From Phylloscopus collybita (taxonomy: Eukaryota > Chordata > Aves > Passeriformes > Phylloscopidae), in assembly GCA_027886175.1 (NCBI GenBank), contig JAJNNQ010000137.1, positions 32,784,001 to 32,848,000 on the forward strand: a stretch of DNA of 64,000 bases. The letters are read 5' to 3'. Under the pieces are notes generated by a model. That model was not told the origin of the DNA. It did not search any database and saw nothing but the letters and a program-made list of their open reading frames with translations. Positions 1 through 13,900 of this stretch are shown here, piece after piece (within the stretch, counting starts at the first letter, position 1; every line of letters begins with the position of its first letter). The translations under genes and the position numbers were made by a program.

Positions 1-460
1 TTTTCTGAAGAGTAAAGGTAGTCTGTGGTCATGAGTGGAGATCCACTTTAAGTCGTATTTTCATAGCAGATGCTGAAACATCTTTCTCTGTGGCTGTTTA
101 TTTAATACATTCCCATATTTGTGACAACCCTTGTCAGCAATGGGGCTACAACGGTGCTATATGTTATTGCACAGACTTCTCTGGGATGTGAAATAACCTT
201 GGTTCAGGCTTTCCATCCAGCCTGGACATTGCGCTGCCCAGCTGCCATTTCAGAAACCCAAGCACAGGAAACCTCTGTGTTGAATCACATTGCTCCTACT
301 TTTGACAGAGGGCTGGGGAAGGGTCTGATGGGATGGGATGGTAGTAGGCTCCTGGGGTATTTACCCTCATTTTCACTGAATATGGAAACGGAGAAATAGG
401 GGCAGCTCTGTTTCCCCCAAGGGGAAATGAAGTGTACTGATTAATTGCTGTAGGAATTTA
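1..460. other. Left flank of the retrovirus, no gene recognised
   Basis: Ordinary AT-moderate vertebrate intergenic sequence. The open frame at 121-399 (92 codons) has no recognisable domain, no splice context and no homologue I know, so I treat it as chance. This stretch is the pre-insertion host sequence up to the target-site duplication. Confidence 0.6.
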
Positions 461-465
461 ATGGT
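461..465. repeat. Target-site duplication, left copy (ATGGT)
   Basis: The five bases ATGGT directly precede the TG that begins the 5' LTR, and the same five bases directly follow the CA that ends the 3' LTR (7223-7227). A perfect 5-bp duplication is the footprint of retroviral integrase. It shows that the element is a single integration with both ends intact rather than a rearranged product. Confidence 0.95.
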
Positions 466-539
466 TGTGGTAGGGTGACTTTTGCTGCTCGTATCCCCAA
501 TCGTCTGCTCTGTTTGTGCTGTATATTCAGTTCTGTACC

Positions 540-546
540 TTTAAAA
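540..546 (+). promoter_or_regulatory. Possible LTR TATA-like element
   Basis: TTTAAAA occurs about 75 bp into the LTR. It is the only obvious TATA-like string in the first half of the LTR. The proximity to the LTR start would give a very short U3, so the true promoter may instead be an initiator further in. The same site recurs at 6650-6656 in the 3' LTR. Confidence 0.35.
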
Positions 547-979
547 CTTGTTCTGGGAGCGAAGGGGGAGAAAGCAGCAGCGCGCAGTTTGTTTTGAGAA
601 ACGGCCTGACTCCCCCACGTCTCTCTCTCCGGCGTTCGTTCTGAGGCACGGACAGCGGTGGGACAGAGATCTCCTGTGCTTTTAGTTAGTTTAGCTAGCT
701 AGGGCAGAGAAGACTTCCTGGACTTTTTTTTTTCTCTTCCTTTTTTTCCTTGGGACTGTTTAAATCTGCTCTGGACCGACAAACCCAGAGGAGCAGCGAG
801 GGCTGGCACCTGCGGCCTGCCAGGCCTGGAGCTGCGGAGGGAGTGGAGCTGGTGAGAGACTGAGCTGAGCTACACCCACGGCAAGAACTGTCTCTGTTTG
901 CCATCTCTCTGCAGAGCGGCCAGAGGTTTTATTGTTTCATATTATTAATTCTTTGCATTTGTGGTCATTTTGTTTGTTA

Positions 980-985
980 AATAAA
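980..985 (+). promoter_or_regulatory. LTR polyadenylation signal AATAAA
   Basis: A canonical AATAAA lies in the distal part of the LTR, followed by a T-rich and then a GT-rich stretch (about 988-1045) that could serve as the downstream element. The functional copy would be the one in the 3' LTR at 7090-7095. Confidence 0.7.
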
Positions 986-1112
986 TAGTTTTTTCCACTT
1001 TTCTCTAAGGAAGTTCTTTTCCTGGACCGGCTGGGGGGAGGGGCCGTTTGGGCTTGCTCTTCAGAGGAACCCCTTCGGAGGTTCCCTCTCAATTTTGCCC
1101 TAAACCAGGACA

Positions 1113-1216
1113 TAGATTTATTTGGCGCCCATCCGTGGGGCTTGAGAGAGTGGAAAAAACTTACATTGACTGCTTTTTTGGTTTTACTTTGTGTGGGGAT
1201 AGAGTATTGAGTAGAT
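1113..1216 (+). other. Retroviral leader between LTR and gag
   Basis: A short leader of about 104 bases holds the primer binding site and then T-rich sequence up to the first gag ATG. The splice donor and packaging signal expected in this area of a simple retrovirus cannot be identified by eye. Because no env exists, a donor may not be needed. Confidence 0.6.
1123..1141 (+). other. Retroviral primer binding site, lysine-tRNA-like
   Basis: TGGCGCCCATCCGTGGGGC starts 10 bases after the LTR end. Its first nine bases and last eight bases fit the lysine (1,2)-type site known from MPMV, visna and spumaviruses (TGGCGCCCAACGTGGGGC). The centre differs and is one base longer. The position and the TGG start make it a primer site with high confidence; the tRNA identity is tentative. 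Confidence 0.85.
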
Positions 1217-3238
1217 ATGTTGCTCATTGAATTCCTAATGTCTCTTGGGATGGAGTCCTTTCTGTGTTTCTGTTCCCTGGGCTTTTTTGAGATTTTAATA
1301 CCTCTCTGGTCCCTAGGTTTGTTTTCGTATTCAGCAATAGCTCCAATGTTGTCTCTAACACGTAGCTTTTACACTAGAGGTGCACGAGTTAGGGTTGCTA
1401 TTGTCCTCGGTTTAGCAATCATGATTTATAGGAAGCTTATACAGGTACTGGAGTTTGTGCCTGGTATGTTTGGTTTATGGCTTCTTCGTCCTACCCTGCA
1501 TCCTAGTTCCAGTAGCATGTTTTGGGAATTTATTAATAATTGCACTCAGTTTGTTAGAGGGGATGAAGCTTTTCAGTCATTTCTTTGTTCCTTCTCTTTT
1601 GAACCAGTTACATCACTTTTAGAGAATGTTCAAAGTCCCCTGACTATTAAAGAAACCACCTTTCTGGTATTTAATCTAGTAGGCTTCCTCTATATGTTCT
1701 ACAGCTTGTCTAGAATGAGGTCTGAGTTCTCCAGAGGGGCTGATGAGACTGCTGACCTAAAGGTAGACCCAGGTGTGAAAAATCCTGAATGGTGTGGAAA
1801 ATGGGAGAGAATGGGCCAAACCTTAAAGGAATTTTCTGATCCCCCAGCTTGGGAATTTTCACGCGAACAAATTCAGAACCCAGACGAAGTGGGGAAATAT
1901 CTGGAGGAGAACTGCCATGATAATTCTAAAGAGAAAAGGCTCATTGCGATAAGCTGGGCCCTGGCATATGCTTATCGTACACTGCTAGATACTGTAGGGC
2001 AGCAGATAGAGGCAGGGGTGCAGGGAGATAAATCAGCAGCTACCCAAGTCCCTTGGGCTGCAGCCAATACCGTAGCTACTCAGACAGCAGCTAAACCAGA
2101 CAGTGAACCTAAGACACTGGCAGTCGCCCCAGCAAAGAAGCGCACATACAAAACTGATCGACGAGTGGATGATGATCCAGGTGAAGGACCGTCAGTGCCT
2201 CCCAACACCCAACCAACTGACACCCAATCAGATGCTGAACCAACTGATACACAATCAGAAACTGAACAGACTGACGTAAAATCGGAAACCCAACCAACCG
2301 GCAGAAGATCACAAGCCCAACCAACTGGCAGAAGACCGGAAGCTACTATTGAGTCCTTTTCCCTGAAGGACCTTCGGGGCCTAAGAAAGGATTACACTCG
2401 ACGACCTGATGAATCTATAATCAGTTGGTTAGTCCGTCTTTGGGATGCTGCAGGTGAGGCTACAATTCTGGACGGCACCGAAGCAAGGCATCTGGGATCC
2501 CTGTCACAAGATCCAGTTATTGACCAAGGAATGATGAGAGAGGCTAATCCACGCAGTCTCTGGGAACGGGTCCTGGGAAGTGTGGAACAAAGATATCTGT
2601 GTGCAGACGATCTCTATATGCAGCAAACCCAGTGGAAGACCATAGAACAAGGGATTCAACGCTTACGAGAAATGGCAGTGGCAGAGATTATCTTCTCAGA
2701 TGACCTAAACACTAGGAACCCAGACCTGGTACCATGCACACCCGTGATGTGGCGAAAACTTGTACGACTTGGGCCACAAGAATACTCATCTGCTTTAGCA
2801 ATAATGAAGCGAGACGACACAAGGGAGACCGTGAGGGATATGGCGAAGAAGCTCCGAGCATATGCAGATGCTGTGCATGGCCCGACACATGCCAGAATTG
2901 CAGCTCTAGAAACGCGTATGCAGACATTAGAAGATAAGATAGAGGAGAACCACAAACAACTCAGAGAGGACATTCTCCAAACCTCTGCAGTACAGGTCAG
3001 AGGTTCTGGTACCAAGCGCAGACGTTCTCCAGATAGGGAAAAAAGCAGTATCCCACGAACTAAGCTGTGGTCCTTTCTGCGTGATTCTGGGGAAGACATG
3101 AGGAAATGGGATGGAAAATCTACTGACGATTTGGCACAACGGCTGCGTGAATTGTTGGAAGGCAAGACTCAGAGAGGTAGTTCCACCAAGAGGGAAGTAG
3201 CTCCAGTTTCCCAGGGGAAGACGGATAACCAGGCTTAG
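1217..3238 (+). CDS. gag: Retroviral Gag polyprotein with hydrophobic N terminus
   Basis: This 673-codon frame sits where gag belongs and would form the particle shell. Residues about 14-46, 58-71, 77-90 and 148-164 are strongly hydrophobic, so the N-terminal quarter looks like a multi-pass membrane region rather than a normal matrix domain. Residues 329-375 are a degenerate repeat rich in Q, P, T, D and E (PTDTQS-like and QPTGRR-like units). Residues about 378-555 are helical and tryptophan-containing and look capsid-like. Residues 559-590 have heptad spacing typical of a coiled coil. Residues 600-603 form a basic KRRR patch. No CCHC zinc knuckle is present, as in spumaviruses and ERV-L. In-frame ATGs at codons 8 and 12 are alternative starts. 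The frame ends in UAG, and the next frame continues in phase with it. The function is inferred from position and layout; the capsid assignment is by eye. Confidence 0.88.
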   Translation: MLLIEFLMSLGMESFLCFCSLGFFEILIPLWSLGLFSYSAIAPMLSLTRSFYTRGARVRVAIVLGLAIMIYRKLIQVLEFVPGMFGLWLLRPTLHPSSSSMFWEFINNCTQFVRGDEAFQSFLCSFSFEPVTSLLENVQSPLTIKETTFLVFNLVGFLYMFYSLSRMRSEFSRGADETADLKVDPGVKNPEWCGKWERMGQTLKEFSDPPAWEFSREQIQNPDEVGKYLEENCHDNSKEKRLIAISWALAYAYRTLLDTVGQQIEAGVQGDKSAATQVPWAAANTVATQTAAKPDSEPKTLAVAPAKKRTYKTDRRVDDDPGEGPSVPPNTQPTDTQSDAEPTDTQSETEQTDVKSETQPTGRRSQAQPTGRRPEATIESFSLKDLRGLRKDYTRRPDESIISWLVRLWDAAGEATILDGTEARHLGSLSQDPVIDQGMMREANPRSLWERVLGSVEQRYLCADDLYMQQTQWKTIEQGIQRLREMAVAEIIFSDDLNTRNPDLVPCTPVMWRKLVRLGPQEYSSALAIMKRDDTRETVRDMAKKLRAYADAVHGPTHARIAALETRMQTLEDKIEENHKQLREDILQTSAVQVRGSGTKRRRSPDREKSSIPRTKLWSFLRDSGEDMRKWDGKSTDDLAQRLRELLEGKTQRGSSTKREVAPVSQGKTDNQA

Positions 3239-3270
3239 AGGGGCCCTGCCTCTAGCCAGGTAGAGGCTAG
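3236..3270 (+). promoter_or_regulatory. Probable UAG readthrough signal between gag and pol
   Basis: Gag ends at TAG (3236-3238). The same frame is then open without interruption into the protease. Nine bases after the stop, GCCTCTA (3248-3254) can pair with TAGAGGC (3261-3267) around a 6-nt loop. A competing pairing, CTAGCC (3252-3257) with GGCTAG (3265-3270), is also possible. Gammaretroviruses place a pseudoknot about 8 nt after a gag UAG to make readthrough efficient, so the geometry is similar. I could not identify a pseudoknot partner with confidence. Confidence 0.65.
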
Positions 3271-6200
3271 GGAAAACCGTGTTTTTTGGACTGTGTGGAT
3301 TCGTTGGCCTGGCACATCTGAACCACAAGAATATAAGGCCTTGGTTGACACTGGTGCGCAGTGCACAATAATCCCATCAAGACATGTGGGGGAAGAATCT
3401 GTTTCTATTGCTGGTGTGACAGGGGGATCACAGGATTTTACTTTGGTGGAAGCCGATGTGAGCCTGACTAGAAACGAGTGGAAGAAACACCCTATTGTGA
3501 CAGGCCCAGAGGCCCCATGCATTTTGGGCATAGACTTCCTCCGAAATGGGTATTTCAAAGACCCAAAGGGACTCAGGTGGGCATTTGGGATAGCGGCTGT
3601 AGAGACAGAAGGTGTTAAGCAGTTGAACACTTTGCCTGGGCTATCAGAGAACCCATCTGCAGTAGGACTCCTGAAGGGGGAAGAGCAACGAGTGCCAATT
3701 GCCACTTCAACGGTGCATCGCCGACAGTACAGAACCACTCGAGATGCTGTGATTCCCATCCACAAGATGATCCGTGAGCTGGAGAGCCAAGGGGTGGTCA
3801 GCAAAACCCACTCACCCTTTAATAGCCCCATTTGGCCTGTGCGCAAGTCTGATGGAGATTGGAGATTGACTGTGGACTATCGTGCATTGAATGAAGTGAC
3901 TCCGCCGCTGAGCGCTGCCGTACCGGACATGCTGGAACTCCAGTACGAGCTGGAGTCCAAGGCAGCGAGGTGGTACGCCACTATTGACATTGCCAATGCG
4001 TTTTTCTCCATCCCTCTGGCTGCAGAATGCAGGCCTCAGTTTGCCTTCACATGGAGGGGAGTGCAGTACACCTGGAACCGACTGCCCCAGGGGTGGAAGC
4101 ACAGCCCCACCATCTGCCATGGACTCATTCAGACTGCATTAGAAAAGGGTGAGGCTCCAGAACATCTGCAGTACATTGATGACATCATTGTATGGGGAAA
4201 CACTGCAGCTGAAGTGTTTGAGAAAGGAGAGAAGATCATCCAGATTCTCCTGAAAGCTGGTTTTGCTATCAAGAAGAGCAAAGTTAAGGGACCTGCTCGA
4301 GAGATCCAGTTCTTGGGAATAAAGTGGGAAGATGGGCGGCGCCAGATTCCCACCGATGTCATTAACAAGATCACAGCAATGTCTCCACCGACCAACAAGA
4401 AGGAAACACAAGCTTTCCTAGGCGCCATAGGCTTTTGGAGGATGCACATCCCTGAGTATAGCCAGATTGTGAGCCCTCTCTACCTGGTTACTCGTAAGAA
4501 GAACAATTTCCACTGGGGCCCGGAACAGCAACACGCCTTTGCCCAGATCAAGCAGGAGATCGCTCATGCAGTAGCCCTTGGCCCAGTTAGGACAGAACCA
4601 GATGTGAAGAATGTGCTCTACTCTGCAGCCGGGAGCCATGGTCTGTCCTGGAGCCTTTGGCAGAAGATGCCTGGTGAGACGCGTGGCCGACCATTGGGAT
4701 TCTGGAGTCGAAGCTACCGAGGGGCGGAAGCCAACTACACCCCAACAGAAAAGGAAATTTTAGCAGCCTATGAAGGAATTCAAGCTGCCTCAGAGGTAAT
4801 AGGCACTGAAGCACAACTCTTCTTGGCACCCCGACTACCGGTGCTGGGGTGGATGTTCAAAGCAGAGGTTCCCGCTATCCACCACGCGACCAATGCCACA
4901 TGGAGTAAGTGGATTGCTCTTATCACACAGCGCGCCCGTATTGGAAAACTGAATCGTCCTGGGATTTTGGAAATAATTACAAACTGGCCTGAAGGTGAAC
5001 ACTTTAGTCTCATTGATGAAGAGGAACAGGAGCAAGTAACCCGAGCTGAAGAAGCTCCACCGTATAACCAACTGCCAGCAGAAGAAACACGCTACGCTCT
5101 TTTCACTGACGGTTCCTGCCGCATTGTAGGGATGAAACGAAAGTGGAAGGCAGCAGTATGGAGCCCCACAAGACAAGTTGCACAAGCCACTGAAGGAGAA
5201 GGTGGGTCAAGCCAGCTTGCTGAACTCAAAGCTGTTCAATTGGCCCTGGACATTGCTGAAAAAGAGAAGTGGCCAAAGGTCTACCTCTACACTGATTCGT
5301 GGATGGTAGCCAATGCTCTGTGGGGCTGGCTGGAAAGGTGGAAAAAAGCCAACTGGCAACGTAGGGGAAAACCAATCTGGGCTGCTGATGAGTGGAAAGA
5401 CATTGCCACCAGAATGGAGAAACTATCTGTAAAAGTTCGTCATGTAGACGCCCATGTTCCCAAGAGTCGGGCTAAGGAGGAACACCGAAACAATGAGCAG
5501 GTAGATCAAGCTGCGAAAATAGAAGTATCGAAGATAGACTTAGATTGGCAACATAAGGGAGAGTTGTTCCTAGCTCGGTGGGCCCATGATGCTTCAGGTC
5601 ATCAGGGCAGAGATGCCACCTATAAGTGGGCACGGGACCGAGGGGTGGATCTAACCATGGACAGTATTTCCCAAGTTATCCATGACTGTGAGACATGTGC
5701 CGCCATCAAGCAGGCCAAGCGGGTGAAGCCCCTCTGGTACGGTGGACGGTGGTCCAAGTATAAGTATGGGGAGGCCTGGCAGATTGATTACATCACACTG
5801 CCCCAAACCCGCCAAGGCAAGCGTTACGTGCTGACCATGGTGGAAGCCACCACTGGGTGGCTGGAGACCTATCCTGTGCCTCATGCCACAGCCCGGAACA
5901 CCATCCTGGGCCTGGAAAAGCAAGTTCTTTGGAGGCATGGTACACCTGAGAGGATTGAGTCAGACAATGGGACTCATTTCAAGAATAGCCTTATCAACAC
6001 CTGGGCTAGGGAACATGGCATTGAGTGGGTGTACCATATCCCCTACCATGCACCAGCTGCAGGCAAAGTGGAGAGGTGCAATGGACTGTTAAAAACCACC
6101 TTGAAGGCATTAGGTGGAGGATCTTTCAAAAATTGGGAGCAACACTTAGCAAAGGCCACCTGGTTAGTTAACACCCGAGGTTCCACCAACAGAGCAGGCC

Positions 6201-6421
6201 CAGCCCAGTCTGAGCTCCTATCTACAGTAGACGGAGATAAAGTCCCAGTGGTACATGTGAGAGGTTTGTTAGGGAAGACAGTTTGGATTAAATCTGCCTC
6301 AAATACAGACAAACCCATTCGTGGGATTGTTTTTGCTCAGGGACCAGGCTGCACATGGTGGATAATGCAGAAAGATGGAACAACACGATGTGTACCTCAG
6401 GGAGATCTGATTGTTGGGTGA
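3239..6421 (+). CDS. pol: Retroviral Pol: protease, RT, RNase H, integrase
   Basis: Residues are numbered from the GTG codon at 3293; the frame is open back to the gag stop, and no ATG precedes the protease, so expression as a Gag-Pol fusion is expected. The protease carries DTGA at residue 19 and a downstream ILGIDFL. RT has catalytic D232 and YIDD at 294-297. RNase H has the acidic set D606, E644, D668 and D719. Integrase has H765-x4-H770-x28-C799-x2-C802, then D832, D891 and E927 (DD35E). An SH3-like C-terminal stretch ends the protein. All of these catalytic residues are present and there is no internal stop or frameshift, so the enzyme set looks intact. No dUTPase is evident. The TGA stop (6419-6421) is followed directly by a perfect hairpin. 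No env frame follows. Confidence 0.96.
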   Translation, partial: RGPASSQVEARENRVFWTVWIRWPGTSEPQEYKALVDTGAQCTIIPSRHVGEESVSIAGVTGGSQDFTLVEADVSLTRNEWKKHPIVTGPEAPCILGIDFLRNGYFKDPKGLRWAFGIAAVETEGVKQLNTLPGLSENPSAVGLLKGEEQRVPIATSTVHRRQYRTTRDAVIPIHKMIRELESQGVVSKTHSPFNSPIWPVRKSDGDWRLTVDYRALNEVTPPLSAAVPDMLELQYELESKAARWYATIDIANAFFSIPLAAECRPQFAFTWRGVQYTWNRLPQGWKHSPTICHGLIQTALEKGEAPEHLQYIDDIIVWGNTAAEVFEKGEKIIQILLKAGFAIKKSKVKGPAREIQFLGIKWEDGRRQIPTDVINKITAMSPPTNKKETQAFLGAIGFWRMHIPEYSQIVSPLYLVTRKKNNFHWGPEQQHAFAQIKQEIAHAVALGPVRTEPDVKNVLYSAAGSHGLSWSLWQKMPGETRGRPLGFWSRSYRGAEANYTPTEKEILAAYEGIQAASEVIGTEAQLFLAPRLPVLGWMFKAEVPAIHHATNATWSKWIALITQRARIGKLNRPGILEIITNWPEGEHFSLIDEEEQEQVTRAEEAPPYNQLPAEETRYALFTDGSCRIVGMKRKWKAAVWSPTRQVAQATEGEGGSSQLAELKAVQLALDIAEKEKWPKVYLYTDSWMVANALWGWLERWKKANWQRRGKPIWAADEWKDIATRMEKLSVKVRHVDAHVPKSRAKEEHRNNEQVDQAAKIEVSKIDLDWQHKGELFLARWAHDASGHQGRDATYKWARDRGVDLTMDSISQVIHDCETCAAIKQAKRVKPLWYGGRWSKYKYGEAWQIDYITLPQTRQGKRYVLTMVEATTGWLETYPVPHATARNTILGLEKQVLWRHGTPERIESDNGTHFKNSLINTWAREHGIEWVYHIPYHAPAAGKVERCNGLLKTTLKALGGGSFKNWEQHLAKATWLVNTRGSTNRAGPAQSELLSTVDGDKVPVVHVRGLLGKTVWIKSASNTDKPIRGIVFAQGPGCTWWIMQKDGTTRCVPQGDLIVG

Positions 6422-6454
6422 AGACTGTGAGTAAATATCATTTACTCACAGTCT
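6422..6454 (+). repeat. Perfect 15-bp hairpin directly after the pol stop
   Basis: AGACTGTGAGTAAAT (6422-6436) and ATTTACTCACAGTCT (6440-6454) are exact reverse complements around a 3-nt loop. The arm starts on the base after the TGA. In a simple retrovirus this area can hold RNA export or stability elements such as the constitutive transport element of MPMV. That role is a guess here; the structure is directly visible. Confidence 0.9.
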
Positions 6455-6564
6455 GGATGCTACTACCATTTTCTGTATATAGCTGTGTATATATATATAT
6501 GTATAATGTATGTGTGTGTAGAGTTAGAATTTTAGTTTTGGTAGTAAGTTGACGATATGGGGAT
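6455..6564 (+). other. Non-coding tail between pol and the polypurine tract
   Basis: About 110 bases contain a TA-rich run followed by a TG-rich run (6476-6520). There is no room for env or an accessory protein, and no spliced frame is visible. A short overlapping open frame at 6355-6552 is chance. Confidence 0.7.
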
Positions 6565-6575
6565 AAGGGGTGGAA
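6565..6575 (+). other. Polypurine tract
   Basis: AAGGGGTGGAA directly abuts the TG of the 3' LTR, where plus-strand DNA synthesis would be primed. A single T interrupts the purines. A second purine-rich stretch (GGGGAT) lies just upstream. Confidence 0.85.
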
Positions 6576-7222
6576 TGTGGTAGGGTGACTTTTGCTGCTC
6601 GTATCCCCAATCGTCTGCTCTGTTTGTGCTGTATATTCAGTTCTGTACCTTTAAAACTTGTTCTGGGAGCGAAGGGGGAGAAAGCAGCAGCGCGCAGTTT
6701 GTTTTGAGAAACGGCCTGACTCCCCCACGTCTCTCTCTCCGGCGTTCGTTCTGAGGCACGGACAGCGGTGGGACAGAGATCTCCTGTGCTTTTAGTTAGT
6801 TTAGCTAGCTAGGGCAGAGAAGACTTCCTGGACTTTTTTTTTTCTCTTCCTTTTTTTCCTTGGGACTGTTTAAATCTGCTCTGGACCGACAAACCCAGAG
6901 GAGCAGCGAGGGCTGGCACCTGCGGCCTGCCAGGCCTGGAGCTGCGGAGGGAGTGGAGCTGGTGAGAGACTGAGCTGAGCTACACCCACGGCAAGAACTG
7001 TCTCTGTTTGCCATCTCTCTGCAGAGCGGCCAGAGGTTTTATTGTTTCATATTATTAATTCTTTGCATTTGTGGTCATTTTGTTTGTTAAATAAATAGTT
7101 TTTTCCACTTTTCTCTAAGGAAGTTCTTTTCCTGGACCGGCTGGGGGGAGGGGCCGTTTGGGCTTGCTCTTCAGAGGAACCCCTTCGGAGGTTCCCTCTC
7201 AATTTTGCCCTAAACCAGGACA
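6576..7222 (+). repeat. 3' LTR (647 bp)
   Basis: Reads as identical to the 5' LTR throughout. It holds the TATA-like site (6650-6656) and AATAAA (7090-7095). The terminal CA at 7221-7222 is followed by the right copy of the 5-bp target duplication. Confidence 0.97.
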
Positions 7223-7227
7223 ATGGT
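7223..7227. repeat. Target-site duplication, right copy (ATGGT)
   Basis: Matches 461-465 exactly and defines the right edge of the provirus. The unoccupied allele should carry a single ATGGT joining the flanks. Confidence 0.95.
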
Positions 7228-9675
7228 GCTTCACACTTCCTTCAAACGCTAGCACGGCTTTAAGACAGCCAGTGGTGTGTGTTTTCTGGTATGCAGTCTT
7301 TAATTACATACCCCTTTTGCTGGATATGATTGCTGGTTCAATTTATTAAATTAATAGTGTTTTATTGATCTCTGTCAATGCACCCCTTTGCTGGTGGTTG
7401 TGGAGTATCATGACTTCGACAATGAAAACTAAATAGTCTTACTAATGCTAAAATTGAGGACAATATGCCATCTGATGAGCACACAAGCAGGGATCTGTAT
7501 TTTATGCCATCTTGGAACAATTTTGCTTCCTTCCCCTCTCTAATCAGACTCTGACTGTTTCTTCTGTGTCTCTTTTCTTTGCTGACCCTCTTTTTACATT
7601 GTTATTTTCAGATTAGAGAAAATTGCTTTCTGTCTGGTAGGGATATAATTTCCTTGTACCCATGGAGAATTTCACTGGGTACCCAGTCTCAGAGTGGATG
7701 TAATTAGGCTTTTGCTGAATTCCTACTGTAGCAAAACTCATGCTATTTCACAGCATGCTGCCAAAATATCTCTCCATAGGATATTACGTCTTCTGAGTGC
7801 TTGTTTCTTAAACATTTAGTCTTCTGTTTAAGATTTTTTTGACTGTTCAGTAAAAATGGTTATGTTTGTAGGAGAAAAAAGAGGACTAACTTCAAACATC
7901 TCTTTGTTTTCCATCTTACAGCAAGGAGTGATCTTCATTCCCTGAATGAAGCTTCATATGCAATTATAGATACCTGAACACAGCTTATGGTGTTTGACAC
8001 CAAGGTCTCAAGACATTGGCTCATGACTTCTGGAAATCTGAATTCAGTTCCCCACAACATAAATTACCAAGGGCCAAATCCACCAGAGGATATTCTTATC
8101 CAGGGTAAAGTCTAGGGCAGGGCAGTTCTGCTTAGATTGACTTCCAAAGGACTAGTGCTTTCAACTACTGCTAGACAGCCTGTGCTGCTTGTTCCTGCTG
8201 TGAAACACCACAAAGTGGTCCTTAAAACTGTCGCTTTTTTTGTTTCTCAATTGTAGATGCATAATCCTCACGTGCAGGTAAACAAGAAGTTCTCCAACCT
8301 TGTGTTGGACAACTATACTTTGAAACTTGGGGAGTTTGCGTGTGCTTTGCTCTCACTATCCCAGCAATTTCTACACTTGGTTAGTATTTTTTATGATGTT
8401 ATATATTGTTTACAAAAGCCTTTAAAATTTTTTTCCTTAGACAGCTGACAACTAGATATAATACTTTTCTGTGTAATACTTAAATCAAGCTCTTAACCTG
8501 CTTCTGGGTCTATAATCAAGACATTTCTACTGTATATAGCAACTACCAATCTCCCCCTATTTTCCTGTTGACTTTAATGGGAATATTTCAGTTATTAACT
8601 GAACCTCCTTTGAACATTGTTTTATCAAAGAAGCATAGCTTCTCTCTTGAAGTCACAACTACCAGCAACACCACGTCCCTCTAGCATCTTGATTGCTCTG
8701 ATATTTGGTTAGAGCCAGCTCTTCTCCTTCAGGGTTTTGGTTCCTCAGACTGCAAGACTACTCATCATCATGGCTATCCTTCCACTACCTTCTGCTACAA
8801 ATAGGGGTTATAGATAATCCTGAAGAAAAAAATGCTTTTGTTACGGTCTGATGTCTTGGAATGACCACACATCACGGTAATATACCTAGTCTCAATACGA
8901 GAAGTAAAAATCTTCCAAAAACTTTGTAACAATTTGTCAGTTGTTTAATGTAGCAAGAGTAACATGACATTCATTTGAAGCGTGTGCTAAATGGCTGACT
9001 TAAAAGAGTTCAGGAGGCAGAGGAGCACTCACTGAATATTATATGAACTTGCAACTACACTTGACAAAGAAATATATAAGTTGCTAAGAAATAAATACTA
9101 CTGCACCAAATTAAATATGAAGTTTTAAAATCACCTGCAATCAAATAGCAATCTGACTTTTGGTAACCCTTTATACAGTGTTTTGTAGCTTGCATTTCAC
9201 ATGGGTGGGTCAAGGGGACAAGACTGAAGGAGTGAAAGAAGGACAGAAACCTGAGGCTGCAACAGCATGGGAGAAATGAGGTCTGGGGTCAGCAGTAGCA
9301 ACCTTTGCTACAAACATCTTCAAGCACTGCCCAAGGCAGTAGCTTCACTCCTTGCTGTAGGAAACTCAGCAGTGCCTACCCCCATTAAGTGTATTTCCTG
9401 CAGAGCTTTGTTTCAACAGTCATCTGTGAAGTGACTCAATAGTGTGGTGTAGATGCACTCTTGCTAGAGACAAATGACTGACTGGTTTGATTTTACTGTG
9501 TGTTTATCCCAGACATGCTTCACTTCCTGTCTTGTGCTGGTTGAAAGCTGGGTACATAGACTCTGAAGGGAGCTCTGCAACCATCTAAAGGCCAAGCCAT
9601 GTCTCAGGTAAGCACTCATCAGCACTCCCTGATACATCTGCATGAAGAGAACTACAGACAAAGACAGTTACTGTG
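7228..9675. other. Intergenic sequence, nothing recognised
   Basis: AT-moderate sequence with only short chance frames (for example 8257-8448). I see no exon, RNA gene or mobile element that I can support. Confidence 0.5.
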
Positions 9676-9908
9676 TGTTGACCATGGCCTGCAACTAAGC
9701 ACCCACACATCCTCTCATCAGGACAAGAGAGAGAACAGGAGTGAAAGCAAGAACTCTAGTAAGTTGAGATGAGAATAGTTTAATAAGTGAAGGAAGGAGA
9801 AAAAAACAAGTAACACAACAGCATTCATTCACCACCTCCTACAAAAGAGCAATGCCAAGGCAGTCTCAGAGCAACAACTGATTTGGAAGACACTCCCCCC
9901 CCCCTCCT

Positions 9909-9939
<31 letters not shown>

Positions 9940-10215
9940 CCCCCATTTTTTATTTCTGAGCATGGCATCATCTCACACAAAGTACCCTTATGGCTGGTTT
10001 GGGTCAGGCACAGGGTCAGATTTTTTACCCACCCCATCCTTCTCACTGAAGGGAAGGGGGCAGAGTGGGAAAGAGAGACAGCAACAACACTGCGCAAGCA
10101 CTGCTCATTAATGGACATAATATTGGTGGTGTCAACTGTTTTAGTCACAAACCCAAATCACATCACAGGGGCTGCTGTGTTGATCATGTACTCTATCCCA
10201 GCCAGAGCCAATACA
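9676..10215 (-). mobile_element. Old solo LTR of a bird endogenous retrovirus
   Basis: Read on the minus strand it begins TGTATTGGCTCTGGCTGGGATAG, close to the common avian LTR start that I remember as TGTGCTGGTTTTGGCTGGGA. It continues with the usual blocks: a CATGCTCAG block with an A/T-rich TATA region near 9945-9970, a degenerate ATTAAA polyadenylation signal near 9780, and a GCAGGCCATGGTCAAC-like end. The left edge is uncertain by a few bases, and no clear target duplication was found. It is a different family from the complete provirus and is visibly diverged. Open frames inside it (9825-10148 minus and 9883-10320 plus) are not genes. Confidence 0.72.
9895..9938. repeat. Simple repeat: C10, then (CA)10, inside the old LTR
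   Basis: A run of ten C (9895-9904) is followed by a CT-rich spacer and ten CA units (9919-9938). It sits in the LTR just before the TATA region and probably arose by slippage in a C- and A-rich LTR segment. Confidence 0.9.
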
Positions 10216-10754
10216 CCTTGTGCTCTCTACCTTCCCCAGGCATCCTCCATTCCTCTAATCGTCAGTGGTTGCTTTTCATGGCTGACTGCTATTCATGTGA
10301 TTTCAGGTAGAGAAAGTTGAAGAGCTTTTGCTTCAATGTAGTTATTATGTGAATTTCACCTCTGCCAGATGTGATTTCCAAAAGATTCTGGGGAAAAGCC
10401 ATACTGGAATCATTCCAAAAGTGTTTCTCTGCATCAAAGTAGCAAAAGACTAGTCTTAGCACATCATCCCTTGCTGCTCAGTGAAAGCTGAATCCACTGA
10501 GGCTGCATTGAACATAATGGCATTTAGAGAAAGCCAGTGATCCAGAATAGGCATTACTAACTTATCATAACATCCTATGTGCAAGAGCTTTTGACTCAAT
10601 TCATGGAGAAGTTCTGCACCACAGGTCCAGTAGCAGTTCTGTTACAATTTAAACATCCCTGGTAGGCACAAGTTGGTCAAACTACATTTGGAACAAAAAA
10701 GGAAAAGTGAGACATTTCACAACATGAGATCTTTGTGGTTTAGACTAATCAGTC

Positions 10755-10990
10755 TGTCACAGCGCGACACAAAAGAAACTACACTCACACACTGAGATGT
10801 CCAAGGCAAAAAGGGCAGGTTTATTTACAGACCTCAACATTTATAGAATTCCAACAGTGATCATGGATTGGAGGAAGAAAATCTTCCTCTCCAACCTCAC
10901 TGATCAATTCAACAGTCCATCAACAGTCTCCTCCTTATGAGAAGAATATAAACATAGAGGGACAGTTACAAAATAGTGAGAGACTCCACT
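10755..10990 (-). mobile_element. Probable LTR remnant of a second retroviral family
   Basis: Read on the minus strand, the sequence has a TATA box (TATAAAT, about 10839-10850). About 20 bases later comes AATAAA (10820-10825), then a segment ending GTCGCGCTGTGACA at 10755. A TATA box with a closely following AATAAA and a terminal CA is the R-U5 layout of many bird LTRs. The upstream U3 edge is not resolved and may extend towards 11095. No target duplication was identified. Confidence 0.5.
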
Positions 10991-13900
10991 GCAAAAGGTA
11001 AACACAGAAGGCTGAAACAGAAAAACTTCTTAAAGAGACAGAGGAGAACAGAAAAAACCCAGACAACATCAGTGCAGTTTATCTGTCAGTACATTGAACA
11101 GATGGACTGCTCTGTAGATACCACAGGCTTGTATGTCCTCCACAGCAAGTCTCTGAGGGAGTAGTATGACCTCAAAGAAGATGCCAGCTGTGCTCCTACA
11201 TCCATTCTCTGTTTATCATTCAAGCTTCTTGTTCCTGTTGTACTTATGGCTAATAATTCTGGTTTATGCTTCTCCTGATAAAAGTGGAATCAGAAATGAG
11301 GAAAAATTCTTAGAGGTTTCTTGTTTAAAATCACATTTAATTTCTTTCACTGAAAGTAGATGAACTGCTCACCCTTTCTTATCCTCCCCTGCTGAGATTT
11401 CACAGAAAGAACTGCTTTGCTGGAGAAATAGAAAAAAAAACAAACTGCAGAGAGCAGAGCTGTAACTATTTTTTATTTAAGCAATAAAAAAGGCAATAGT
11501 GCAATCCTTAATTAAAGCAAGTTGAGACAAGTATGTGGTTTAATAATCTGGTAGAACCCTTTTTATTCCAAGAAAGCTACATTTGTCAAGACAGGAACAA
11601 TCAGGGAAATATATCTTATTTATCTCACAGAACGACTATTACCTCCTGAAAATAGCAGAGTTCTCCATTTTAGGATGTGCAGTTAGAGTTGACTTCCCAG
11701 TCCCCTCTTTGTGCCCCTGAGTAAATGTGTGTGGGAATTTTTACACAGGAGTACTCTCAGAAGATGTGGAGCTGGCCTCGCCTGCTCCACAGAGTAGCAT
11801 CTACTCCATCACCACCCCATCCCAGTAAGTTAGCCATGCCAGATAATAAATCACAACGCTGTAGAGGACTATTGCAGAGGGCACTTGGCAATTATGGACT
11901 ACTATTCTGTGTAGTTACAGGACTATCTCTCAAGCCTTCTTTTGCTCAGCTCTCTTCAGCCCCCTATCCCCCAGGAAATACATGTATGAGTTGCTTCTAC
12001 ACAGCAAGATGTCCTCTGTCTCCACAATGGTAACATATTCTTTATCTCAGGTCCATGGTCTGCCCTCAACAGCCACTTGCCTGTGAATAGGAAGGAGAAG
12101 GGATTTGCAGAAAAGCCCTTGTGTCCTGCTTTGTCCAGAAATGTTCCCCTGAGATGTCCTGAGCATCTGTGACTAGTCAGAACAATATTATACTCAGTGA
12201 AGATTATGCATGGACCAGTAACAATTGAAGCAGCACCTTGTGTCCTTAAATGTTGTTTTGTCCTAAAAGAGAATTGAATTTGCCTCTTTTTGATAAGCAT
12301 AATGCCTTCCTCAAAGCAGCAGGTGGCTGGAACTATTTAGTCAGGTTTGTAATTTTCCCCTGATGATCACATTCACTAATGTTTAGCTCCTGGGAAGCTA
12401 ATGAGACACACACCCATGGTATCAAAAGCACTCTGGCAAACACTGAGAGGTATGTTCTCTGTCTCCATGCTTTTAAGGAACACAAACACATGCCAACCCT
12501 GCCAGCTGGGTCAGCTAGGATAAGGAGAGGCTAATTGCTAGTCTCTAGTGGAACCACTCTAGTTCATGAAGAATATCTTTAGAACTATTTTATGAATAGG
12601 ATGTAAAAAGTTGAAAATACACATCAAGAGAGAATATTTTTTGTACTAATCTTGTCCTTTTGGGAATGCCCATAACTGCTGGGATACCGGAGTACAGGTT
12701 TTTCTGTCTGGGGTGAGCAGGAAAGAAATGTTTTCAGTGGTTGCAAACTGGTACAACTAGTAATATTGAAGTTAATCTGTGTTTCTTTTTAGATTTTCTG
12801 ATAGAGCATTTCCATGATGAATATTTAGGAAAAAAAGTGTATAGCCAGGCCAGTTTTCATATGGCACCTCTTCAGCAGAGGGAAATAGCACTTTATGATA
12901 AGATGCTTTTCAAAGGAAATTTTTTATGTGTCTTTTTCTGGAAAGCCTCTCTCCATGCATATTTTGGTGTAAACCTTGTTTGTCTAATACATATTTACAT
13001 AATAAATTCAAGCTTTTTATTTCAGAAGTCTTTTGCAGATATCTACTCATCCATATGGTGGAATAAAAAGACCTGACCAGATCAAATGTAGCAGATCTGA
13101 TGGGTCTGCTTAATAAGGCCTGAGATTAACCTTCATATCTGAAAACTAAGCAGTTAAATTAAACAGGAGTAAGGCTGAACACTGGCTGTACTGCTGACCA
13201 GGTATGCTCATGAGAGGTATGCTCATGAGATGGGACACAATCAGCCATGGGGAGAGGAGAGCAGAGCATCTTCCTTGCCAGACACACACAGAGTGCCCAG
13301 CACGGACAGTGGAGCTGGGCACTGTATGGGGCTTGACTGAGGACTGCTGCCAGTGGAGCAGGAGAGCTCTCCTGGGGTATGTGTTCTGCTAGAAAGAGCA
13401 AAGCAAATCATCCCAATGAGATAAGCAGATAGCAGGAAGGTGCTCAGGGGTTCCCAGGGCTGACTGTGGCAAGACTGAATGTATTTTAAGCTGAGAAAGA
13501 GAGGCTGTGCTGATGGCTGTGTGCCATGGCCCTTCGGCACAGCCCATGCCCTGGGAGGAGTGTGGGAAGAAGGGAAGTATTGAGACCACTTTGAAACTTC
13601 CTCTGTGCCTCTGTAATCAGAGAAGGATTAAACCCATTCACAGTCAGTCCCAATGGGATGTAAATTGTTGCTGCAGCACAGCCAGTGCTGGGGACACTCC
13701 TGACTCTTTACTCCCCTGCCCCAGTTTCCATTGCATCCTGGCAAAAAGGTAAAAATTTGCACAAGTTTCACCTGAACTGAGGATGTCAAGAACAAGAACA
13801 GATCCAGATGCAAAGGAATATAAAGGAAACAAAGAAATAATTTGGAAGAGGAATTAAAGCTTTAAGAACATAAATTCTAGCTCCTTTGGCTTTTTCAGAA

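Follow-up and report, generated by a model that had tools for sequence, protein, structure and literature searches.

The window analyzed here is a 64,000-nt stretch of the Phylloscopus collybita genome (contig JAJNNQ010000137.1, positions 32,784,001 to 32,848,000). Near its start, a provirus with two long open frames, gag and pol, lies between two LTRs (Table 1). As the LTRs are identical and ATGGT is found on both sides, the provirus was considered young. Only 154 nt separate the end of pol from the 3' LTR, and the element is therefore without env. The primer-binding-site-like sequence presumably resembles tRNA-Lys sites.

Table 1. Features of the provirus and of its gag-pol junction (window positions)
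Feature	Position	Strand	Remarks
Target-site duplication ATGGT, 5' copy	461-465	+	
5' LTR	466-1112	+	647 bp, TG...CA
Primer-binding-site-like sequence, TGGCGCCC...	1123-1141	+	10 nt past the 5' LTR
gag open frame	1211-3238	+	675 codons, first ATG at 1217, closed by UAG
Competing hairpin, GGCU(U)AGAGG / CCUCUAGCC	3232-3257	+	Includes the UAG
UAG gag stop, proposed readthrough site	3236-3238	+	Sole stop between gag and pol
Spacer from UAG to stem 1, AGGGGCCCU	3239-3247	+	9 nt
pol open frame	3239-6421	+	1060 codons, same frame as gag; encodes protease, RT, second RNase H-like stretch, RNase H, integrase
Outer extension of stem 1, 5' arm CCCU	3244-3247	+	
Stem 1, 5' arm GCCUCUA	3248-3254	+	
Stem 2, 5' arm GCCAGG	3255-3260	+	Hairpin loop
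Stem 1, 3' arm UAGAGGC	3261-3267	+	
Loop 2	3268-3307	+	About 40 nt
Outer extension of stem 1, 3' arm AGGG	3269-3272	+	U3268 bulged
Stem 2, 3' arm CCUGGC	3308-3313	+	Pro-Gly codons of WPG
Polypurine-tract-like run	6559-6575	+	Precedes the 3' LTR
3' LTR	6576-7222	+	647 bp, identical to the 5' LTR
Target-site duplication ATGGT, 3' copy	7223-7227	+	

A 5-bp target-site duplication marks ERVL, and the element combines this avian ERVL trait with the lack of env and an RNase H accompanied by a second RNase H-like stretch. It is a young, env-less bird endogenous retrovirus, probably, though not firmly, of the ERVL type. The best solved-structure relatives of Pol were several RTs with near-equal scores, presumably including gammaretroviral and foamy RT entries. 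Named Pol matches were bird proteins, with up to 95% identity (best 120 of 610 matches). Searches of PDB and NCBIfam gave no answer as to the identity of Gag, and no relatives of the element were found in the viral contig and genome contig collections searched. Of the Gag traits that characterize gammaretroviruses, neither a CCHC zinc knuckle nor an MLV-type capsid was detected in gag (Pfam, E <= 0.01), and a domain search of pol returned no dUTPase match. Mammalian ERV-L carries a dUTPase after integrase. The absence of this domain is not decisive for birds, because OVEX1, an element of chicken and zebra finch, is also described as being without it (extract of PMC2717909).

By eye, the first ~170 residues of Gag (1217-1750) are strongly hydrophobic, with several membrane-like stretches, which is odd for a Gag. 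Tandem repeats of 27 nt (2211-2343) encode a Pro/Thr/Gln-rich stretch. A herpesvirus glycoprotein C-like match has been reported for the gag of TguERVL2 (extract of PMC6523648), and a low-complexity repeat region of this kind might be its source.

The first-pass annotation had described gag and pol as lying in one frame split by a single UAG, with a 7-bp stem 9 nt past it and no ATG ahead of the protease in pol. All of this agrees with the positions found: GCCTCTA and TAGAGGC enclose the loop GCCAGG, and pol has its first in-frame ATG at 3767 (residue 177), downstream of the protease. Frameshifting was rejected since the frames of gag and pol agree, and reinitiation was rejected since that ATG follows the protease. 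The spacer, AGGGG and then CCCU, is only half purine. With U3268 bulged, the outer extension brings stem 1 to 11 bp, and the extended hairpin (3244-3272) is the most stable of the 6728 29-nt windows on the plus strand of the element. The loop is exactly complementary to CCUGGC further downstream, making an H-type pseudoknot possible. In this candidate (spacer of 9 nt, S1 of 6 bp, S2 of 7 bp including one U-G, and L2 of 39 nt), A3254 would probably be unpaired as a one-base loop 1.

The limits of the knot scan were chosen after the knot had been seen, with the gammaretroviral layout in mind, permitting L2 up to 60 and taking stem energies from a simplified table; within these limits, a pseudoknot of equal stability and the same geometry was found at 6 of 6617 element positions (3238-3243, all one knot), and its stability was matched at 15 of 24000 random window positions. 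Among randomized sequences, 20000 of each kind, 7 dinucleotide shuffles, 23 synonymous resamplings, and 43 within-region synonymous permutations also matched it. Any weaker pseudoknot was present in 1837, 3753, and 4185 of the 20000 sequences in these sets, respectively. As weaker knots arise in so many shuffles, it is the stability that is unusual and not the knot as such.

Folding of 3230-3310 with a pseudoknot search had been suggested as a check. The nested fold proved ordinary (z of -0.40), whereas the pseudoknot search revealed stable complementarity extending to 3313. The minimum-energy nested structure is a competing hairpin that pairs the UAG with CCUCUA (-13.9 in groups A and B of the copies described below and -10.3 in group C) and that could be either chance or an off state. 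Folding of the whole region alone would have missed the signal, and a search of Rfam over 1-12000 gave no match at E <= 1. The stop and the next codon (UAGAGG) exactly copy a sequence within the 3' arm of stem 1; thus, CCUCUA can pair either way. An unlikely though conceivable reading is a two-state switch, in which CCUCUA would pair with the stop (off) or downstream in the pseudoknot (on), the ribosome melting the first structure and so freeing the second. If such a switch were true, this symmetry would have arisen in the passerine groups with the change to U-A at 3253-3262, and most of the old clade, with the arm UGGAGG, would be without it. In groups B and C (copies L029 and L036), about 40-75 nt past the UAG, loop 2 contains by eye a perfect 8-bp complement, AUCGGAUC/GAUCCGAU, directly before the stem 2 arm; six of the eight pairs are left in the window.

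Using a WTVWIRWPGT pattern with up to two mismatches, 1406 places were identified in the 1.25-Gb genome, and 90 of the 100 listed, all 100 mismatch-free, were used. Together with 28 of the best 40 DNA matches, near-identical by choice, these gave 118 loci, with one place occurring twice and one being the window itself. The pattern is silent on the stop and on stem 1; in the 3' arm of stem 2, it fixes four bases out of six. It was found that UAG is present in 117 of the 118 loci and the exact 31-nt block that begins with it in 113. The locus without UAG, L069, has the junction deleted; by eye, the deletion covers the stop and stem 1, and its breakpoints seemingly share TAG. Nine of 10 places chosen for an altered Thr codon also have UAG, the other (L122) carrying CAG, and in the mixed sample UAG was found in 155 of 157 located (158 in total).

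The 31-nt block is identical in the four subgroup representatives (A, A', B, and C), and the fourfold divergence of pol in the four subgroups is 30-43%. Within the first 430 codons of pol, the fourfold sites that differ from the window (group A) number 76 of 176 in B, 74 of 177 in C, and 57 of 191 in A'. In B and C, the identical run has the U of UAG as its first base and ranks second in length, and in the A' comparison the block lies inside the longest identical run, 47 nt from 3230. Three subgroups with different Gag tails before the UAG (CAGGCT, CAGTGC, and CAGGAA) have the block in common. Across the four representatives, the first 10 testable pol codons made up the longest run without a synonymous change among 363 (87 of 100000 permutations). 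The conserved, foldable block sits at ribosome-entry distance. As conservation alone names no role, the block might be kept for another RNA function, such as packaging or dimerization, with the UAG bypassed by unaided near-cognate decoding; this is highly improbable, given that the block starts exactly at UAG in the B and C comparisons and that the fold is placed at readthrough distance.

Stem 2 is paired in 217 of 222 cells of the mixed sample versus 1-111 when slid, a result partly built in by the WTVWIRWPGT pattern. The pairs of the outer extension form in 37-42 of 43 haplotypes of this sample, some of their bases being set by the search patterns, and the outermost pair of stem 1, G3248-C3267, is unpaired in groups B and C. 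A strict pseudoknot of any stability was detected in 35 of 39 young copies, and one of -20 or better in 34. Many of the copies listed, old and young, are on a few contigs (C59, C80, and C52), those on C59 with a tandem-like spacing of 28-35 kb; this clustering perhaps reflects a sex-chromosome refuge.

An old clade was identified by searching with the Gag tail and the first codons past the stop, which fixes the spacer bases and 3248-3249 and nothing downstream, and the sample was chosen independently of the 3253-3262 pair. After two unrelated places of 41 were dropped, 39 were kept, representing 33 distinct haplotypes. The stop position is UAG in 35 of the 39, UAA in one, and UAC in three. Six pairs of stem 1 are intact in 175 of 198 cells versus 84-119 when slid, and the four pairs of the outer extension form in 22-31 of the 33 haplotypes. 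The 3253-3262 pair, U-A in the young groups, is C-G in 19 old haplotypes, U-G in 7, U-A in 5, and otherwise in 2, being paired in 31 of 33. Both U3253-A3262 and C3250-G3265 have third codon positions on both sides. The latter is C-A in 10 of 33 haplotypes, and G3248-C3267 is unpaired in all 33. The first-pass annotation had looked to related copies for conservation of the stem with compensatory change: the stem is largely kept and one pair is compensatory, but in the old clade two pairs are frequently missing.

Covariation at 3253-3262 gave a Fisher p of 0.018, uncorrected for kinship, and the pair ranked 23rd of 465 by mutual information in the old clade and 8th of 465 in old and young copies together; it amounts to one pair and perhaps one event. 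The search patterns for 3253/3262 changes, like that for the old clade, fixed parts of stem 1. Copies sought for a changed 3253 (n = 22) had C-G (5), C-A (4), C with GAA (1), G-A (11, including 8 near-identical ones on C80 and C515), or A-A (1), leaving the pair unrestored in 17. UAG is present in 21 of these 22 places, and L131 has TGG. In all eight copies that keep U3253 but differ at 3262, the pair is U-G and the stop is UAG.

Strict pseudoknots of any stability were found in 13 of the 33 old haplotypes and in 6 at -20 or better, a scarcity that is as decayed insertions would show, without being proof. Readthrough could be real and driven by the stop context and a simple stem-loop, with the pseudoknot unformed or irrelevant, as may hold in epsilonretroviruses; WDSV and SnRV are described as having no pseudoknot past the gag stop (Huang 2013, extract of PMC3835772). 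The great stability of the hairpin alone, the length of loop 2, the partly built-in conservation of stem 2 in the young sample, and copy L123, with CCC instead of CCU in the stem 2 arm, are in keeping with this reading. We nevertheless regard it as rather unlikely, as the old-clade pattern left the stem 2 arms free, yet in the 22 in-register copies they pair in 107 of 132 cells versus 13-63 when slid (15-20 of 22 for each pair).

At the protein level, the Gag tail ...GKKDNQA (up to three substitutions) is the end of 33 of 229 proteins, the window's own included; the other 32 comprise 28 proteins of named birds and 4 encoded on short contigs. Another Gag lineage, seen in wood stork, ibis, crane, eagle, barn owl, manakin, and swallow and on further contigs, has ...DQD-type tails, with 14 rows ending exactly at the stop place, five duck models ending in ...SDQD, and 11 of 339 matching a stricter motif. 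Other rows of that comparison end a few residues off (e.g., USP4 and AMFR isoforms) or elsewhere. In several bird orders, Gag-like segments were seen inside isoforms annotated as USP4 and AMFR (P0161, P0252, P0270, P0271, P0290, P0256-P0258, P0261, P0265, and P0266), and these are either old insertions turned exons or annotation artefacts.

Eleven gene models are contiguous through the stop place, where they carry S, Y, K (in five models, all of wood stork), E (in two), Q, or R, followed by an invariant GPASSQ. With the exception of R, each of these residues is a single base change away from UAG, and from UAA as well. Contiguous models over-represent lost stops, because these are the models that an annotator can print. 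The five wood stork models with Lys (P0231, P0232, P0240, P0255, and P0272) may perhaps derive from an amplified lineage with gag and pol fused. A UAG that is merely the private or decayed stop of a single copy might be suspected from these sense residues, the L069 deletion, and the other codons present in the genome (CAG in L122, TGG in L131, and TAC in three and TAA in one of the 39 old copies). The chance of this is close to nil: UAG predominates strongly in every sample, Gag relatives terminate there in many birds, and the private mutation that the first-pass annotation had allowed for was not encountered.

Many bird gene models join gag to pol via an apparent intron ending at the acceptor CAG/GTAGAGG, and Pol could in principle be translated, in foamy-virus fashion, from an mRNA (gag-pol or pol) from which splicing has removed the UAG. 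The joined upstream residues vary, with 24 different gag ends among 35 intron-bridging models (8 contiguous ones set aside) and the commonest occurring 5 times; thus, the joins look like predictors dodging a stop. As pol also has no ATG before the protease and the conserved block begins at UAG rather than at the acceptor, splicing is very unlikely. ADAR edits UAG to UGG within a hairpin in hepatitis delta virus, and the UAG of the element lies in the stem of the alternative fold. Editing here is extremely improbable, since Trp is found at none of the 11 sense residues, though genomic copy L131 has TGG, and the alternative stem is weaker in group C.

We consider it likely that pseudoknot-stimulated UAG readthrough is the gag-pol recoding signal of this young, env-less bird endogenous retrovirus. 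Most ribosomes would halt at the UAG, yielding Gag, while a pseudoknot of stem 1 with its outer extension and stem 2 would wait at the mRNA entry site. In a minority of ribosomes, a near-cognate tRNA would decode the UAG to give Gag-Pol, and protease, RT, and integrase would be made solely as this low-level fusion. Formation of the knot, readthrough, its rate, and the inserted amino acid are what we infer from the sequence.

In-frame gag stop suppression has been described for gamma- and epsilonretroviruses (extract of PMC1224870). In MuLV, 5-10% of ribosomes read through, with glutamine inserted, and the knot equilibrates between an inactive state and an active one, the latter being a minor conformer (extract of PMC4178896). 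The signal of the gammaretroviruses (Mo-MuLV, FeLV, GaLV, and BaEV), a lineage different from that of the bird element, shares with the junction described here a UAG between in-frame gag and pol and a possible H-type pseudoknot downstream, with S1 and S2 adjacent, a short loop 1, no loop 3, and an S2 of 6-7 bp (extract of PMC3835772). The gammaretroviral S1 is 8-9 bp, whereas here a core of 6-7 bp is accompanied by a bulged 4-bp extension; the purine-rich spacer is 8 nt, compared with 9 here (5 if the extension forms); L1 is 1-2 nt; and L2 is 17-19 nt, compared with 39-40 here, twice as long (Huang 2013, extract of PMC3835772). The resemblance to this readthrough signal that had been proposed from the stop, spacer, and stem is supported and is closer than claimed, as a pseudoknot is also possible.

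Among elements compared by description only, TguERVL2_I_Ucy, a songbird/finch ERVL, is like the provirus in being ~6.4 kb with two long ORFs in one frame, a protease partly outside the ORF, and a second, broken RNase H, and in being very young with no intact envelope (extract of PMC6523648). A text search of that paper found no mention of a stop codon or frameshift. OVEX1 shares with the provirus an amber codon ending Gag, pol in frame with suppression presumed, and a Gag without zinc finger; it differs in having lost RT active-site residues and in a third ORF, maybe an envelope, and an RNA signal is absent from the extract of its description (PMC2717909). XtERV-S, a class III element of Xenopus, has ERV-L-related gag and pol in frame with stop suppression presumed, and differs in its TGA stop, its env, and a tRNA-Ser primer (extract of PMC8278194); the word pseudoknot is absent from that paper (PMC8278194). 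As suppression of an in-frame stop had already been proposed for OVEX1 and XtERV-S, as seen in these extracts, the layout is not new, and the suggestion of an undescribed signal stands for its RNA part, which looks new. Among the papers listed by a literature search confined to open-access sources, which do not include those on MuERV-L, none described a pseudoknot acting in readthrough for any ERV-L or bird element.

With this junction, a class III-type endogenous retrovirus gains a concrete recoding signal where related descriptions note only an in-frame stop. Such a signal would explain why bird gene models join gag to pol across a false intron, and the many old and young copies in a single bird genome form a natural mutation series for the rules of readthrough. 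Overall, the finding points to pseudoknot readthrough being older than the gammaretroviruses or reaching beyond them.
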